Source: Deinococci bacterium (GTDB lineage: Bacteria; Deinococcota; Deinococci; Deinococcales; Trueperaceae). From it: 39,545 bases of DNA. The position numbers were made by a program, and so were the translations under genes. The notes under the pieces are model-generated. The model searched no databases. It saw only the letters and a program-made list of their open reading frames with translations, and had not been told where the DNA came from. Below are positions 2,371 through 39,326 of the stretch, in pieces. Within the stretch, counting starts at the first letter, position 1, and each line of letters begins with the position of its first letter. The stretch is taken from assembly GCA_030149325.1 (NCBI GenBank), contig JASBRS010000012.1, positions 1-39,545 of the forward strand, in the 5' to 3' direction.

Positions 2371-4215
2371 TCACGCCTCGGACTCGCCGGGGGCGCTCGC
2401 CAACCAGCGTCGGCCCAGGCCCAGGACGATGCGGACGATCGGCACCAGCAGCAGGCCGACGGCGAGCCCGATGGCCAGGGCGATGAAGGTGCGTTCCGCC
2501 GAGATCAGCAGGGGCGTGTGGTAGTGGCTGAAGGTGTTCAGCACGCTGGCCTGCGCCAGTACGCCGCCCGTGAGCAGGAGCCCGCGGAGCCACGACGGCC
2601 AGCGTGGGTTCGCCAACGCCAGCACGGCCAGCGGGTGGCCGATCAACTCCTTGAAGCGCGGCCGAACGAACATGTCCGACAGCCACTGGCGGATCGCCAG
2701 CTCGGCGTGCGAGGCGCCGATCACCGGGGTGTTGCCGCGCCGCAGGAACGCCAGCGCCAGGGCGGCGACCGCCACCAGCGCCAGCGTGACGTGGCCGACG
2801 CGTACCTCCGCGCCCCAGAAGTCGCGGACCCAGGCGGCGGGCCGGCGGTAGCGCAGGGCGTACTGGAACAGGAACAGCGCCGGCGGGACCACCAGGGTGG
2901 CGCCGACGCCGGCGAACGGGCGGATGGCCAGCATGGTGTCGCGCTCGCTGCCGACCGCCGCCAGCAGCGCGGCCCCGGCGACGCTGATGAGCGTCGCGAG
3001 CACCACGCTCCAGGGGTTGCGCCGAAGGTGGCCGTAGCCCAGGACCGGGAACGTAAGCGCCGCCATCAGGGCCAGTGCGTCCCATCGGGGCCCCCCGGCG
3101 ACCAGCCCGAGCCCCGCGATCAGCAGCGCCACCAGCACCCCCCAGGGGGCGGGGAAGAGCGGGATCAGGAGCAGCACCCCCGCCACGATCCCGACCCCGG
3201 CCAGGGCGCGCAGCAGGGTGCTGGTGCGGTAGTGGAAGGTCTGCGCCTGCAGCGGTCCGACGGTGTAGCCCGCCTTGCGCAGGGCGCTCGTCAGCCCCTT
3301 CAGGGTGCGCTCGGTGTTGGCCACCATGTCACCGCCGTCGCTGGTGGTGTAGGGGCGCAGGTAGAGCAGGCGGATGTTGCGCTCCGACACGGCCAGCATG
3401 TACTTGTCGACGAGGTCCTGGGGGCTGAGGCGGCGGTTGACGTAGTCCTGGTTGAACGACAGCAGTCGCACCGTCGGCACCCTGTTGAGCAGCGTGTCGA
3501 GCCCCTGCTGCGGCGTGCCCTCGATGAGCGCCGTCAGGTAGGGCTGCGACGCCTTCACCAGGGGGGCCACGTCGCCCGGGAAGCCGGGCACCTGCGTGCC
3601 GCTGTAGATCAGGTAGTGAGCGAGTTCGGGGAAGTCGGCCCCGGGATGCAGCAGCCGGTAGGGCGCGTTGCGCGGTCGGTAGGCGATGTCGAAGCCGGCG
3701 TCGTGCCAGGCTCGGATCTCCGTCAGATCCGGTCCGGCGGGCAGGCTGGCGCGGACGTCGCCGGGGTAGACGTACCAGCTGCGGCCGCCGAACGCGACGG
3801 TGCGGGGCGCCGGCACGTTGTCGGCGACCAGGGCGTCGAGGGCGCCCGGGACCAGAGCGGTCACCAGCGTGGCATCGGCGGGGACGTCGGGGGGCGCCTC
3901 GCCGCGCGCGACGGCCAACGCCGTCGCCTCGCTGCCGAGCAGGGCGACGGCGCGGCCCTTGGCGACGAGGCTGTCGCTGGTGTCCTCGTAGAGCGCGATC
4001 CCGGTGAGGCCCATGGCGCGGTAGCGCTGGGCCAGCTCGAGCGGGGTCAGGCCGAGCTGAGCGGCCTGGTCGGCGAGGGCCGGCTCGTCCATGATCAGCG
4101 CGACCCTCTCGCTGACGCCCTCCGACTGGATCCTGCGGACGACGAGGACGGCGGCGGGGATCAGGCTGAGCAGGACGATCCCCGCCAGCCACCGTCGGTA
4201 CCTGGACTTCAGCAC
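2371..4215 (-). CDS. DUF5693 family polytopic membrane protein
   Basis: This 614-residue protein has one N-terminal membrane helix (about residues 10-25), a large extracytoplasmic domain (about 30-320) and about eight membrane helices in the C-terminal half. The soluble part begins VALIMDEPALADQAAQLGL and carries a repeated style of 'IALYEDT... LVAKGRAVAL' that matches the DUF5693 family as I know it. The start is GTG at 4215 with GGAGG four bases upstream, right behind the udk stop. Function is not established; its tight linkage to csaB suggests export, assembly or modification of the secondary cell-wall polysaccharide. Alternative: a general membrane polysaccharide factor. No catalytic motif was recognised. 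Confidence 0.8.
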   Translation of the reverse strand: MLKSRYRRWLAGIVLLSLIPAAVLVVRRIQSEGVSERVALIMDEPALADQAAQLGLTPLELAQRYRAMGLTGIALYEDTSDSLVAKGRAVALLGSEATALAVARGEAPPDVPADATLVTALVPGALDALVADNVPAPRTVAFGGRSWYVYPGDVRASLPAGPDLTEIRAWHDAGFDIAYRPRNAPYRLLHPGADFPELAHYLIYSGTQVPGFPGDVAPLVKASQPYLTALIEGTPQQGLDTLLNRVPTVRLLSFNQDYVNRRLSPQDLVDKYMLAVSERNIRLLYLRPYTTSDGGDMVANTERTLKGLTSALRKAGYTVGPLQAQTFHYRTSTLLRALAGVGIVAGVLLLIPLFPAPWGVLVALLIAGLGLVAGGPRWDALALMAALTFPVLGYGHLRRNPWSVVLATLISVAGAALLAAVGSERDTMLAIRPFAGVGATLVVPPALFLFQYALRYRRPAAWVRDFWGAEVRVGHVTLALVAVAALALAFLRRGNTPVIGASHAELAIRQWLSDMFVRPRFKELIGHPLAVLALANPRWPSWLRGLLLTGGVLAQASVLNTFSHYHTPLLISAERTFIALAIGLAVGLLLVPIVRIVLGLGRRWLASAPGESEA

Positions 4216-4875: not shown

Positions 4876-6564
4876 TCACGGCAGCACCTCGCCCGGGACC
4901 GCCGCGCGCTCGGGACCGGCGTCGTTCCGGCGCGCGCCGGCGCGCGCCACCGCGGCCTGGATGAAGCCCTTGAAGGGCGGGCTGGGGCGCATCAGGCGGG
5001 AGCGGAACTCGGGGTGCGACTGCAGGCCCAGGAAGAAGGGGTGCCCTTCGATCTCGATCGCTTCCACCAGGCCCTCGCCGCGCCCCGCCATGCCCGGGGT
5101 GATGCCCGACACCGTCAGCCCGGCGTCCTTGAGCTGCGCGACGTAGCCGGGGTTGACCTCGTAGCGGTGGCGGTGGCGTTCGTAGACGACGTTCTGGCTG
5201 GCGGGCGCAGGATCGTAGAGGCGCTGGAGCAGGGTGCCGTCGCTCACCTGCATCGGCCAGCTCCCCAGCCGCATGGTGCCCCCCATGTCGGCCACCTCGA
5301 GCTGCTCGGGCATCAGGTCGATGACCGGGTGCGGAGTGTAGGGGTCGAACTCGGTGGAGTTGGCCGCCTCCAGGCGGGCGACGTTGCGGGCGTACTCGAT
5401 GACCGCCACCTGCATGCCGAGGCAGATGCCGAGGTAGGGGACGCGGTGCTCGCGCGCCACCTGCGCCGCGCGGACCTTGCCCTCGATGCCGCGCACCCCG
5501 AAGCCCCCCGGCACCAGGATGCCGTCGAACGTCCGCAACGGGCTCAGGTCGGCCTCGACCAGCGCCTCGGCGTTGACCCACTCGATGTTCACGCGTGCGT
5601 CGTTGGCGATGCCGGCGTGCTTGAGGGCTTCCATCAGGCTCAAGTAGGCGTCGGGCATCGCCACGTACTTGCCGACCACGGCGATGGAGACCTCGCTGGC
5701 GGGCTGGCGCAGCACCCGCACGGCGTCCTGCCAGACGCGCAGCTCCGGGGTGACGCGCTCGAGCGAGAGCATGCGCTCGATGAAGCGCCCGATGTTCTGC
5801 TGCTCCAGCATCTCCGGCACGGCGTAGACGAAGTCGGCGTCGAAGGCGTTGAACACCGCGTCGGCCTCGACGTTGGTGAACAGCGCGATCTTGCGGCGCG
5901 CCTCCTCCGGGACCGGCGTCTTGGAGCGCAGGATGATGCCATCGGGCTGGATGCCCACCCCGCGGAGGGTGGCCACCGAGTGCTGCGTGGGCTTGGTCTT
6001 GTACTCCTCGCTGGTCCCGAGGTAGGGGAGCAGCGTGACGTGGAGGTAGAGGGTGTTCTCCCGGCCCATCTCGAAGCGGATCTGGCGGATCGCCTCCAGG
6101 AAGGGCAGCGACTCGATGTCGCCCACCGTGCCGCCGACCTCGACCAGCACCAACTCCGCGCCGACCCGCTCGCCGGCGTCGACGATGCGCTGCTTGATCT
6201 CGTCGGTGACGTGGGGGATGACCTGGACCGTCTGCGATAGGTAGGCGCCCTGGCGCTCCTTCTCGATGACCGTCTGGTAGACCTGGCCGGTCGTGATGTT
6301 GTTGCCCCGCGCCAGGTCGACGTCGAGGAAGCGCTCGTAGGTGCCGATGTCGAGGTCGGTCTCGGCGCCGTCGTCCGTCACGAACACCTCGCCGTGCTCG
6401 TAGGGACGCATGGTGCCGGCGTCGACGTTGATGTAGGGGTCGATCTTGATGGCGGTCACGGCGTAGCCGCGGGCCCGGAGCAGCGCTCCGATGCTGGACG
6501 TTGCGATGCCCTTGCCCAGGCTCGAGACCACCCCACCGGTGATGAAGATGTACTTGCGGTCCAT
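4876..6564 (-). CDS. pyrG: CTP synthase
   Basis: PyrG makes CTP from UTP with ATP and glutamine. The 562-residue protein has the amidoligase domain first (GGVVSSLGKGI near residue 10, EVGGTVGDIESLPF near 145) and the glutamine amidotransferase domain second: GGFGVRGIEGK, the nucleophile segment YLGICLGMQ, and the C-terminal SHPEF of the catalytic triad. The ATG at 6564 precedes MDRKYIFITGG, the standard N-terminus, with an AAGGTGAGG ribosome site. It is divergent from the fluoride operon and is followed by udk. A 30-residue Arg/Ala-rich C-terminal tail extends beyond the usual end. Confidence 0.97.
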   Translation of the reverse strand: MDRKYIFITGGVVSSLGKGIATSSIGALLRARGYAVTAIKIDPYINVDAGTMRPYEHGEVFVTDDGAETDLDIGTYERFLDVDLARGNNITTGQVYQTVIEKERQGAYLSQTVQVIPHVTDEIKQRIVDAGERVGAELVLVEVGGTVGDIESLPFLEAIRQIRFEMGRENTLYLHVTLLPYLGTSEEYKTKPTQHSVATLRGVGIQPDGIILRSKTPVPEEARRKIALFTNVEADAVFNAFDADFVYAVPEMLEQQNIGRFIERMLSLERVTPELRVWQDAVRVLRQPASEVSIAVVGKYVAMPDAYLSLMEALKHAGIANDARVNIEWVNAEALVEADLSPLRTFDGILVPGGFGVRGIEGKVRAAQVAREHRVPYLGICLGMQVAVIEYARNVARLEAANSTEFDPYTPHPVIDLMPEQLEVADMGGTMRLGSWPMQVSDGTLLQRLYDPAPASQNVVYERHRHRYEVNPGYVAQLKDAGLTVSGITPGMAGRGEGLVEAIEIEGHPFFLGLQSHPEFRSRLMRPSPPFKGFIQAAVARAGARRNDAGPERAAVPGEVLP

Positions 6565-6664: not shown

Positions 6665-6673
6665 TGATACACT
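6665..6673 (+). promoter_or_regulatory. Extended -10 promoter for the fluoride riboswitch operon
   Basis: TGA followed by TACACT forms an extended -10 element at 6665-6673. The predicted start, about seven bases on, falls at the first base of the fluoride riboswitch. That coincidence supports the call. No clear -35 box is visible. Confidence 0.6.
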
Positions 6674-6678
6674 CCGCG

Positions 6679-6734
6679 CGGGTGATGGCGTTCACCCTCG
6701 CGTAACCGCCCGCGTTCGGCTGATGACGCCTGCC
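6679..6734 (+). promoter_or_regulatory. Fluoride riboswitch (crcB motif)
   Basis: The sequence holds the conserved parts of the crcB RNA in order. GGGTGATGG at 6680-6688 is followed by GTTCACCC, which closes the first stem and supplies the pseudoknot loop. Next comes TAACCGCC at 6703-6710, and then GGCTGATGACGCCTGCC at 6718-6734. These match the fluoride-binding riboswitch consensus from Pseudomonas and Thermotoga. The downstream gene is crcB, the usual target. The ribosome site GGGAGGA (6752-6758) lies 18 bases after the aptamer and no T-rich terminator is seen between them, so control of translation is more likely than termination; that part is inference. Confidence 0.9.
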
Positions 6735-6761
6735 CTCACTCCACGGACGCCGGGAGGACCC

Positions 6762-7154
6762 ATGCTCATCCTGGGAGTCATGCTGGGGGGCGCTCTCGGC
6801 GCCCTGACCCGCTACCTGGTCACCAACGGGGTCCAGGGAGCGCTGCAGGGGACCGGCTTCGCCGGCTTCCCGCTGGCGACCCTGCTCGTGAACGTGGCGG
6901 GCTCGTTCCTGCTCGCGTTCGTGACCGAGCTCGGCTTGCGCGGCCTGGTATCGCCCGCGGCGCGGGTCGCGGTCGGTACCGGGTTCCTCGGCGCCCTGAC
7001 CACCTTCTCGACCTTCGAGCTGGAGAGCCAGCTGCTCATCCGTGACGGTGAGCTGGTGCGCGCCGGCACGTACGTGATGGCCAACCTGGCGGTCGGCTAC
7101 CTGGCGATCCTGGCCGGCCGCGCCGCCGCGCTGCGGCTGGCGGGAGCGCCGTGA
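6762..7154 (+). CDS. crcB: Fluoride channel CrcB/FluC
   Basis: FluC exports fluoride as a dual-topology dimer in the inner membrane. The 130-residue protein has four hydrophobic helices and the family signatures: GGALGALTRY near the N-terminus, LVNVAGSFLLAF (conserved Asn at residue 44) and GFLGALTTFSTFELE (residues 75-88), which includes the Phe residues and the Thr/Ser track lining the pore. The ATG at 6762 was chosen over the in-frame ATG at 6723 because GGGAGGA lies just upstream and homology begins there. Only one crcB is present, so a homodimer is expected. It is preceded by a fluoride riboswitch and overlaps the first DUF190 gene by four bases. Confidence 0.95.
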   Translation: MLILGVMLGGALGALTRYLVTNGVQGALQGTGFAGFPLATLLVNVAGSFLLAFVTELGLRGLVSPAARVAVGTGFLGALTTFSTFELESQLLIRDGELVRAGTYVMANLAVGYLAILAGRAAALRLAGAP

Positions 7155-7516
7155 GCGCTGCGTCGCGGTCGTCCGGCGAGGAGGCCGCCCTGCTGAGGGT
7201 GTTCTTCGGCGAGAGCGATCGCGTCGGAGGACGCCCCGCGGCCGAGGCGCTGCTCGTCGCCGCCCACGAGGCCGGCCTGTCCGGCGCGACCCTGCTGCGC
7301 GGCAGCCTCGGCTACGGCGCCGATTCGGTGCTCCACCAGCCGCAGCCCTTCCGCCTCTCGGGCGACCTGCCGATGGTGTTCGAGGTGGTCGACGCGGAGA
7401 GTCGCATCGACGCCTTCGTCGACGAGTTGGGCCGGCTGCTGACGGGTGGCGGTCTGGTGACGGTGGAGCGCGTGACCCGCCTCCGCCCCGCAGCTGACGG
7501 GAGCGAGACCCCGTGA
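7151..7516 (+). CDS. DUF190 family PII-like protein, copy 1
   Basis: This 121-residue protein matches DUF190, small proteins with a PII-like (ferredoxin-fold) core. Visible marks are LLRVFFGESDRVGGRPAAEAL, then AHEAGLSGATLLRGSLGYG and the hydrophobic strand MVFEVVDAESRIDAFV. The GTG start at 7151 overlaps the crcB stop (GTGA), so translation is coupled. DUF190 genes often lie beside crcB, as I recall, and the family is thought to regulate or sense; no enzymatic function is proved. A second, divergent copy follows directly. Confidence 0.88.
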   Translation: MSAASRSSGEEAALLRVFFGESDRVGGRPAAEALLVAAHEAGLSGATLLRGSLGYGADSVLHQPQPFRLSGDLPMVFEVVDAESRIDAFVDELGRLLTGGGLVTVERVTRLRPAADGSETP

Positions 7517-7881
7517 GTGTGCTGCACAGGGCCGGCCTGGAGGGGGCATCGTTGCTGCGCGTCTACACCCTGGCCGGCGACAAGGTCGGGCGCGTGAGCC
7601 TGGCCGAGGCCCTGGTCCACGCCGCCCGCGAGCGCGGCCTGCGGGGGGCCACCGTGCTGCCGGGGCTGGCCGGGTTCGGGCGGCACGGCCTGGACGTGGC
7701 GCTGTCGGTGCTGGTCTACCGCCCCGAGCGGCAGCCGCTGGTGGTCGAGCTGGTCGACGAGCCCGAGCGGCTGAAGCGCTTCGTCGACGAGGACGTGGCG
7801 CGCCTCGACCGCTGGGGCCGGTTGGCGACCCTCGAGCGGCTGCGCCTGCACGCCTACCACGCCACCCCGGAGCCCGGCTGA
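7513..7881 (+). CDS. DUF190 family PII-like protein, copy 2
   Basis: This 122-residue protein has the same layout as the preceding gene: GASLLRVYTLAGDKVGRVSLAEAL, then ARERGLRGATVLPGLAGFG and the strand LVVELVDEPERLKRFVDE. The two copies are clearly homologous but much diverged, with differing loops, so they may form a heteromer or bind different ligands (inference). The GTG at 7513 overlaps the stop of copy 1 by four bases. It is the last gene of the fluoride unit; the next gene, gmk, has its own promoter. Confidence 0.87.
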   Translation: MSVLHRAGLEGASLLRVYTLAGDKVGRVSLAEALVHAARERGLRGATVLPGLAGFGRHGLDVALSVLVYRPERQPLVVELVDEPERLKRFVDEDVARLDRWGRLATLERLRLHAYHATPEPG

Positions 7882-7904: not shown

Positions 7905-7971
7905 CGCGCGCAGTCCGATGCCGCCACGGCGGCGCGGGCGGTCACCCCACCTGCGAGGAGCGGCCACGACG

Positions 7972-8601
7972 TTGGACGAGGCGCAACATCGGAAGGGCAT
8001 CCTGTTCGTCATGACCGGCGCGTCCGGTGTCGGCAAGGACACCATCCGACGGGCCGCCCTGCCCGCGATCGACGGCATGGTCTACTCCATCTCCGCGACC
8101 ACGCGAGGGCGTCGGCCGGGGGAGGTGCACGGCGAGCAGTACTACTTCTACGACCGCACCACCTTCGAGGGCATGATCGAGCGTGACGAGCTGCTGGAGT
8201 ACGCCGACTACGTGGGCGACTACTACGGCACGCCGAGCCTGCCGGTGCGGCAGGCCATGGACGACGGCAGCGACGTGCTGCTGGAGCTGGAGCTGGTGGG
8301 CGCCCGGGAGGTGAAGCGCAAGATCCCGGAGGCAGTGATGCTGTTCATCGCGCCGCCCTCGTTGTACGAACTCGAGCGCCGCCTGCGGGGGCGGGGCACC
8401 GACAGCGAGGCCAAGATCCAGAAGCGCCTGGCGCGGGCGCGCGACGAGATCCGCGCGGTCCGCGAGTTCGACTACGCCATCGTCAACGACGTCCTCGAGG
8501 ACGCCGTGGGGCTCTTCACCAGCATCATCCGCGCCGAGCGGGCACGCGCCAGCCACCTCCAGGACAGCGACGTCGCCGACTTCCTGCGCGAGCAGGGCTG
8601 A
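7972..8601 (+). CDS. gmk: Guanylate kinase
   Basis: Gmk converts GMP to GDP with ATP. The 209-residue product has a P-loop (MTGASGVGKDT), the GMP-binding segment SISATTRGRRPGEVHGEQYYF, YADYVGDYYGTP, the LLELELVGAREVKR region, and the lid around LRGRGTDSEAKIQKRLARAR. The usual P-loop GPSGxGK is here GASGVGK. I favour TTG at 7972 because GAGGAG lies about 11 bases upstream and the extra N-terminal residues from the ATG at 7918 (Arg/His-rich) look non-native; that ATG is close to the promoter and cannot be excluded. It heads the common gmk-rpoZ-coaBC order. Confidence 0.9.
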   Translation: MDEAQHRKGILFVMTGASGVGKDTIRRAALPAIDGMVYSISATTRGRRPGEVHGEQYYFYDRTTFEGMIERDELLEYADYVGDYYGTPSLPVRQAMDDGSDVLLELELVGAREVKRKIPEAVMLFIAPPSLYELERRLRGRGTDSEAKIQKRLARARDEIRAVREFDYAIVNDVLEDAVGLFTSIIRAERARASHLQDSDVADFLREQG

Positions 8602-38849: not shown

Positions 38850-38925
38850 GCCACCCTAGCTCAACCGGTAGAGCATCCGACTTGTAATCGGAAGGTTGTC
38901 GGTTCGACTCCGATGGGTGGCTCCA
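38850..38925 (+). tRNA. tRNA-Thr (anticodon TGT)
   Basis: The acceptor GCCACCC pairs with GGGTGGC, followed by T and encoded CCA. The anticodon loop CTTGTAA between TCCGA and TCGGA gives anticodon TGT at 38883-38885, reading ACA and ACG. The T loop GTTCGACTC is normal. First gene of the tRNA-tuf cluster, as thrU in E. coli. Confidence 0.97.
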
Positions 38926-38969
38926 CGACGCGAAGGCCGCGGACTCCGCGGGTGCGATGTCCAGGGTGC

Positions 38970-39055
38970 GGGTAGGTGCCCGAGTGGTTAAAGGGGACGG
39001 ACTGTAAATCCGTTGGCTTTTGCCTACGCTGGTTCGAATCCAGCCCTGCCCACCA
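38970..39055 (+). tRNA. tRNA-Tyr (anticodon GTA)
   Basis: The acceptor GGGTAGG pairs with CCTGCCC (one G-T wobble), and discriminator A and CCA follow. The anticodon loop CTGTAAA gives GTA at 39004-39006. A long variable arm is present, as in class II tRNA-Tyr. It matches tyrU in the E. coli order. Confidence 0.97.
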
Positions 39056-39056
39056 C

Positions 39057-39090
39057 CGTCGGCCACGGCCGACGTCCGCCTACGGGCGGA
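39057..39090 (+). repeat. Two tandem hairpins between tRNA-Tyr and tRNA-Gly
   Basis: CGTCGGCC and GGCCGACG form an eight-base inverted repeat with only AC between (39057-39074), so the closing pairs probably open to give a four-base loop. Directly after it, TCCGCC and GGCGGA enclose the stable TACG tetraloop (39075-39090). They lie two bases after the tRNA CCA and may guide processing or attenuation. Confidence 0.7.
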
Positions 39091-39098
39091 ACCAGAAC

Positions 39099-39174
<76 letters not shown>

Positions 39175-39179
39175 GTCCA

Positions 39180-39223
39180 GGTCCTGTGCGCGCTGGCGCC
39201 GAGGCGGCTCGTCGCACAGGACC
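39180..39223 (+). repeat. Long inverted repeat between tRNA-Gly and tRNA-Thr
   Basis: GGTCCTGTGCG (39180-39190) and CGCACAGGACC (39213-39223) are perfect inverted repeats of 11 bases separated by 22 GC-rich bases. The RNA stem would lie six bases after the tRNA-Gly CCA. It resembles a processing stem (RNase III type) in a tRNA precursor. Confidence 0.7.
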
Positions 39224-39251
39224 GGGCGGCAACGACGGGGTACGAAGGCGG

Positions 39252-39326
<75 letters not shown>

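Follow-up and report, generated by a model that had tools for sequence, protein, structure and literature searches.

A fluoride riboswitch operon in a Trueperaceae bacterium joins crcB/fluC to two predicted PII-like DUF190 proteins, one of them from a distinct lineage

In fluoride riboswitches of the RF01734 class, the binding of fluoride switches on the downstream genes. FluC, the channel encoded by crcB, is a two-fold antiparallel dimer through which fluoride exits passively, and it is usually viewed as a simple, unregulated pore. For DUF190 proteins, we know of two solved structures and of no established role. They were earlier proposed to be GlnK-like modulators of other channels (PMC3543383), and the Pelobacter DUF190 discussed there would likewise modulate an adjoining transport protein, although the channels are for acetoin and glycerol and not for fluoride. 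The locus described here shares the RNA aptamer, the crcB gene and their order with the known RF01734-FluC operons, but adds two DUF190 genes to them.

The operon lies on the plus strand of the window, which is the whole stretch of 39,545 nucleotides that was analysed, in the order RF01734 aptamer, crcB/fluC, DUF190 copy A and DUF190 copy B (Table 1). It is flanked by a pyrG-like gene (4876-6564, minus strand) and by gmk (7918-8601, plus strand). A sequence-only reading had described one fluC gene followed by two DUF190 genes with GTGA overlaps, and both the coordinates and the profile matches agree with this. The overlaps are exact: the TGA stop of crcB is at 7152-7154 and the GTG start of copy A at 7151, and the TGA stop of copy A is at 7514-7516 and the GTG start of copy B at 7513. 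Genome-wide, there were one crcB gene, one RF01734 match and three DUF190 genes. The third DUF190 gene, which the sequence-only reading did not include, is on another contig (C20, 5094-5471, minus strand), where it lies directly behind a flavodoxin-like gene with no riboswitch; its product is 58% identical to copy A. Our tentative reading is that the two proteins of the operon, which would be fluoride-inducible, have a regulatory function at the membrane, in which A would sense a ligand and B would be its altered partner. At the far end of the window, at 38850-39323, four tRNA genes adjoin tatA/tatC-like genes, which is an ordinary arrangement.

Table 1. Features of the fluoride riboswitch operon in the window
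Feature	Position	Strand	Evidence
Possible extended -10, TGaTACACT, no -35	6665-6673	+	Read by eye
Fluoride riboswitch aptamer, crcB motif, RF01734	6672-6739	+	cmscan, 48.5 bits
crcB/fluC fluoride channel, 130 aa, GGGAGG upstream	6762-7154	+	PF02537, TIGR00494
DUF190 copy A, 121 aa, canonical PII-like	7151-7516	+	PF02641, TM0021 match, AlphaFold model
DUF190 copy B, 122 aa, divergent PII-like	7513-7881	+	PF02641, clade, residues, model

The crcB-motif RNA that had been proposed at 6679-6734 is real, as this interval falls inside the RF01734 match, which scored above the gathering cut-off of 34 bits (E 1.3e-10) and covered the model at full length (1-64). The extended -10 that had been placed at the start of the RNA can be read in the letters, but a scan of the leader for sigma-70-type promoters gave no site. 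The pattern TGnTAnnnT is also present 16-18 nt before the first aptamer stem in the leaders of the Deinococcus grandis and D. gobiensis operons, and, judged from sequence, the extended -10 upstream of the window's aptamer is plausible as a promoter. Neither an intrinsic terminator nor an anti-Shine-Dalgarno helix was found in the window leader, and the leader folded no better than its shuffles in a program that cannot draw the aptamer pseudoknot. The protein encoded by crcB matched PF02537 at 89.5 bits (cut-off 32.9) and TIGR00494 at 82.5 bits (cut-off 80.45). It carries the pore-asparagine motif LVNVAGS and the phenylalanine-box motif TTFSTF, read as GALTTFSTFELE, and we take this asparagine and this phenylalanine box to have the same roles as in the FluC structures.

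To the question of whether DUF190 lies next to crcB more often than by chance, which the sequence-only reading had raised, the genomes gave a clear answer. A search of 101 genomes from the order gave 71 DUF190 matches, of which 56 were on the same strand as crcB and at most 700 bp downstream of it; this is far above chance. With one crcB in a 2.5 Mb genome, about 1.4e-4 would be expected per DUF190, and chance adjacency was rejected. Within the same 101 genomes, the pairing was spread over 50 of the 57 that bear DUF190 and over 10 of 11 genera. No DUF190 was found in 33 of 89 crcB-bearing genomes, so the CrcB channel can do without it. Fifteen DUF190 matches lay away from crcB, and five of these (in G062, G075, G077, G083 and G085) followed an RF01734 match of the same strand at a distance of 1-3.4 kb. 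Some Thermales DUF190 genes are inside fluoride-riboswitch operons even when crcB is missing. The operon in G083 has the riboswitch followed by a Na+/H+ exchanger, DUF190 and an MFS gene, and the order in G099 is riboswitch, exchanger, USP, crcB, DUF190 and MFS. One fluoride riboswitch, in G013 (C1:1696664-1696726), was found 118 bp downstream, not upstream, of the crcB pair.

The pairing was also found in Actinomycetota, Alphaproteobacteria, Gammaproteobacteria, Cyanobacteriota, Bacteroidota and Chlamydiota, and an association limited to one lineage was therefore rejected. A crcB gene adjoined DUF190 in 10 of 18 inspected plasmid loci, which were picked for spread and not randomly, so that this count is no estimate of frequency. 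The ten loci came from Streptomyces (three), Methylocystis, Cereibacter, Chroococcidiopsis, Hymenobacter, D. grandis, D. gobiensis and Aquicella, with the S. nigrescens crcB assigned by HMM. On the Streptomyces plasmids (L120, L122 and L123) a single DUF190 gene has a crcB gene on either side, the two crcB genes being different and the overlaps short, and on a Parachlamydiaceae contig crcB overlaps DUF190; four-base overlaps between the genes of the operon recur outside the window. RF01734 was present in five of the ten crcB-linked plasmid loci, compared to none of the five metal-pump-linked loci that were scanned.

Metal-efflux pump genes were near DUF190 in six of the plasmid loci that had no adjacent crcB, and pump genes of the CusA/CzcA type stood beside DUF190 in Caulobacter, Phenylobacterium, Sphingomonas, Anabaena, Chondrocystis and Granulicella. 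On plasmid pJCM12687 of Mycobacterium branderi (L129:1775-2854), three DUF190 domains are joined in one protein chain, which fits a trimeric DUF190, and the gene is near those for enolase and a proton-conducting transporter subunit, both of which are themes of fluoride regulons. DUF190 might then be a general toxic-ion or stress protein that binds ions as CutA1 does, or that senses energy collapse or acidification, and that is expressed together with any efflux system that happens to be induced, with no action on FluC. The six genera with pumps, the enolase in M. branderi and the riboswitch operons, some with crcB and some lacking it, that contain Na+/H+ exchanger, USP and MFS genes all speak for it. 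Given that metal pumps, antiporters and enolase are further companions of DUF190, a general stress or ion-handling role comes close behind the regulatory reading. The adjacency to crcB in particular, and the four-base overlap with it, are nevertheless very strong and are repeated in several phyla. They suggest that DUF190 is tied more closely to FluC than to the other partners, and we consider the general role possible but doubtful. CutA1 is a PII-like trimer linked to metal tolerance; it differs from the window's DUF190 proteins in its Pfam family, and no sequence match between them was found. The loci L126, L128, L130, L134, L135 and L136 are heavy-metal efflux clusters with DUF190 on plasmids of Alphaproteobacteria, Cyanobacteriota and Acidobacteriota. 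No DUF190 was found in phage records.

Copy A matched PF02641 at 99.7 bits and TM0021 with an E value of 8.7e-18, and it retains all of the conserved residues (GExD, S, H and LSxDLP). Copy B matched PF02641 at 63.8 bits (cut-off 23.4), and the motifs LAGD, GFGRHG and RPxxQP replace GESD, S/H and LSxDLP. The equivalents of E21, S59, H62, S70, D72, L73 and G101 are altered in the window's copy B. AlphaFold models of A and B, built from seven sequences only, had a mean pLDDT of 78 and 82, respectively. Most of the changes in B are in or next to a low-confidence segment of the models at the position of the T-loop of PII proteins. A Foldseek search with the model of A returned 1o51 and 2dcl first, followed by SbtB (including the SbtA-SbtB complex), CPII and GlnK; the model of B matched 2dcl and 1o51 first, and GlnK1 and SbtB as well. 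The PII-like fold that had been claimed was thereby borne out for both copies by the matches of their predicted models. By profile, sequence and predicted fold, A and B agree with DUF190/COG1993 (PF02641), TM0021 (1o51) and PH1503 (2dcl), but B has few of the polar residues that the canonical members conserve, and it forms a clade of its own.

SbtB with SbtA and GlnK with AmtB are likened to the window's proteins by a common predicted fold, by a flexible T-loop-like segment and by an adjoining gene for membrane transport. In contrast to SbtB and GlnK, the window's A and B are below the Pfam P-II cut-off, with no match at all (the third DUF190 of the genome reached 18.2 against a cut-off of 25), and their neighbour FluC is a dimer, whereas AmtB and SbtA, the known PII targets, are trimers. 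A and B could be imagined to gate FluC directly, as a PII-like protein that plugs or opens the channel depending on a nucleotide. The conserved, overlapping crcB-DUF190 pair and the PII-like fold are in line with such a gate, as is the fact that GlnK-AmtB and SbtB-SbtA, the latter holding the nearest functional analogue, both act on transporters. A GlnK-style plug is nevertheless no simple fit to the two-fold symmetry of FluC, and many CrcB proteins occur without DUF190, among them CrcB of the same clade in G002 and G005, genomes that have no DUF190 whatsoever. DUF190 is moreover found in riboswitch operons that have no crcB and by RND pumps, antiporters and etf/hyf-like genes, and the A-B pair of G039 is distant from crcB. 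Since FluC is a two-fold dimer and close relatives of the window's CrcB occur without DUF190, gating of FluC alone is less likely, and we rate the direct gate as quite unlikely.

Three observations favour regulation at the membrane: both proteins have a predicted PII-like fold, A and B differ at the position of the T-loop, and genes for membrane transport are constantly nearby. For the window's operon we infer the induction by fluoride, the assembly of A with B, the ligand and the target. Fluoride bound to the riboswitch would give a single transcript for FluC and two translationally coupled PII-like proteins, so that A and B would be made in step with the channel. The two would act jointly as a cytoplasmic regulator, probably in the form of mixed PII-like trimers, in which A would sense a small ligand, with an adenine nucleotide as the best guess. 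The complex would adjust the efflux of the toxic ion through FluC, or through a co-induced ion transporter, as fluoride or the energy state of the cell changes. A wider version is conceivable but unlikely: DUF190 would be a widespread and so far unrecognised PII-like control of bacterial fluoride resistance, and in its Deinococcota A/B form a ligand-binding A would join an adapter B that has lost binding, the mixed trimers tuning FluC or a partner transporter according to the energy state. If the regulatory reading is true, FluC would be subject to further control by a conserved PII-like protein that shares its riboswitch, and this partnership would indicate a function for DUF190. The A/B system would also be compact, with two small soluble proteins, one channel and one inducer.

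The arrangement of crcB with two DUF190 genes, which had been singled out in the window, recurs elsewhere and comes with a separate B lineage. We placed 45 DUF190 domains in a maximum-likelihood tree, the bootstrap of which had not fully settled. In it, the five B copies (from the window, G012, G039 and the D. grandis and D. gobiensis plasmids) formed one clade (98/95), and the A copies that partner them clustered with the third DUF190 of the window's genome (92/85). Compared to 27 canonical members, the B copies retain D23, G51, G54, G56 and P75 (window B numbering), but all five have lost E21, S59, H62 and D72 (window A numbering), and all five have Q in place of the invariant L73 and R in place of G101, which are the B-specific Q74 and R103. 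Plasmid pDEGR-2 of D. grandis repeats the layout of the window, with riboswitch, crcB, A and B joined by four-base overlaps. On plasmid P3 of D. gobiensis (L137:2005-4619), the order is again riboswitch-crcB-A-B, with an IS3 element that breaks A and a B-type frame beyond it. G012, which belongs to the same family as the window, has crcB-A-B with no riboswitch detected. In G039 the A-B pair (L068:3942-4636) is behind etfB-etfA and away from crcB, and a riboswitch (3855-3915) lies between B and a hyf/mrp-like operon with NADHdh/Proton_antipo_M genes. When the B alignment was run against 84,980 species, only three loci came up, with patterns so strict that this is no proof of rarity.

The loss of conserved polar residues and the small number of B copies, limited to three genomes in the search of the phylum and two Deinococcus plasmids, might suggest that B is a duplicate in the course of decay, without a separate function. 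Against this, the reading frames are intact, the B copies form one clade over three families with invariant Q74 and R103, and each of them is retained beside an A partner; decay is hence very improbable. On the sequence evidence, copy B is an old, co-inherited paralogue and not a random duplicate. The second DUF190 of Hymenobacter has diverged in another way, so the origin or the retention of a degenerate second copy was not a single event.

The sequence-only reading had also suggested an undescribed accessory system. This agrees with the literature searched, where no paper linking DUF190 to fluoride was found, the gene list of the central riboswitch paper being outside that search; on the other hand, the crcB-DUF190 pairing is very common and a GlnK-like role had already been proposed (PMC3543383). 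We make no claim to have seen the association of crcB with DUF190 first, as gene-neighbour databases may well show the pair. The pairing of A and B, with a distinct B clade, looks to be the new part, and a B lineage that is kept beside A may be a sign that fluoride resistance has a helper not yet described. In G012, a gene for inorganic pyrophosphatase, a known target of fluoride, is located at L067:3377-3910 and is divergent from the crcB-A-B operon.
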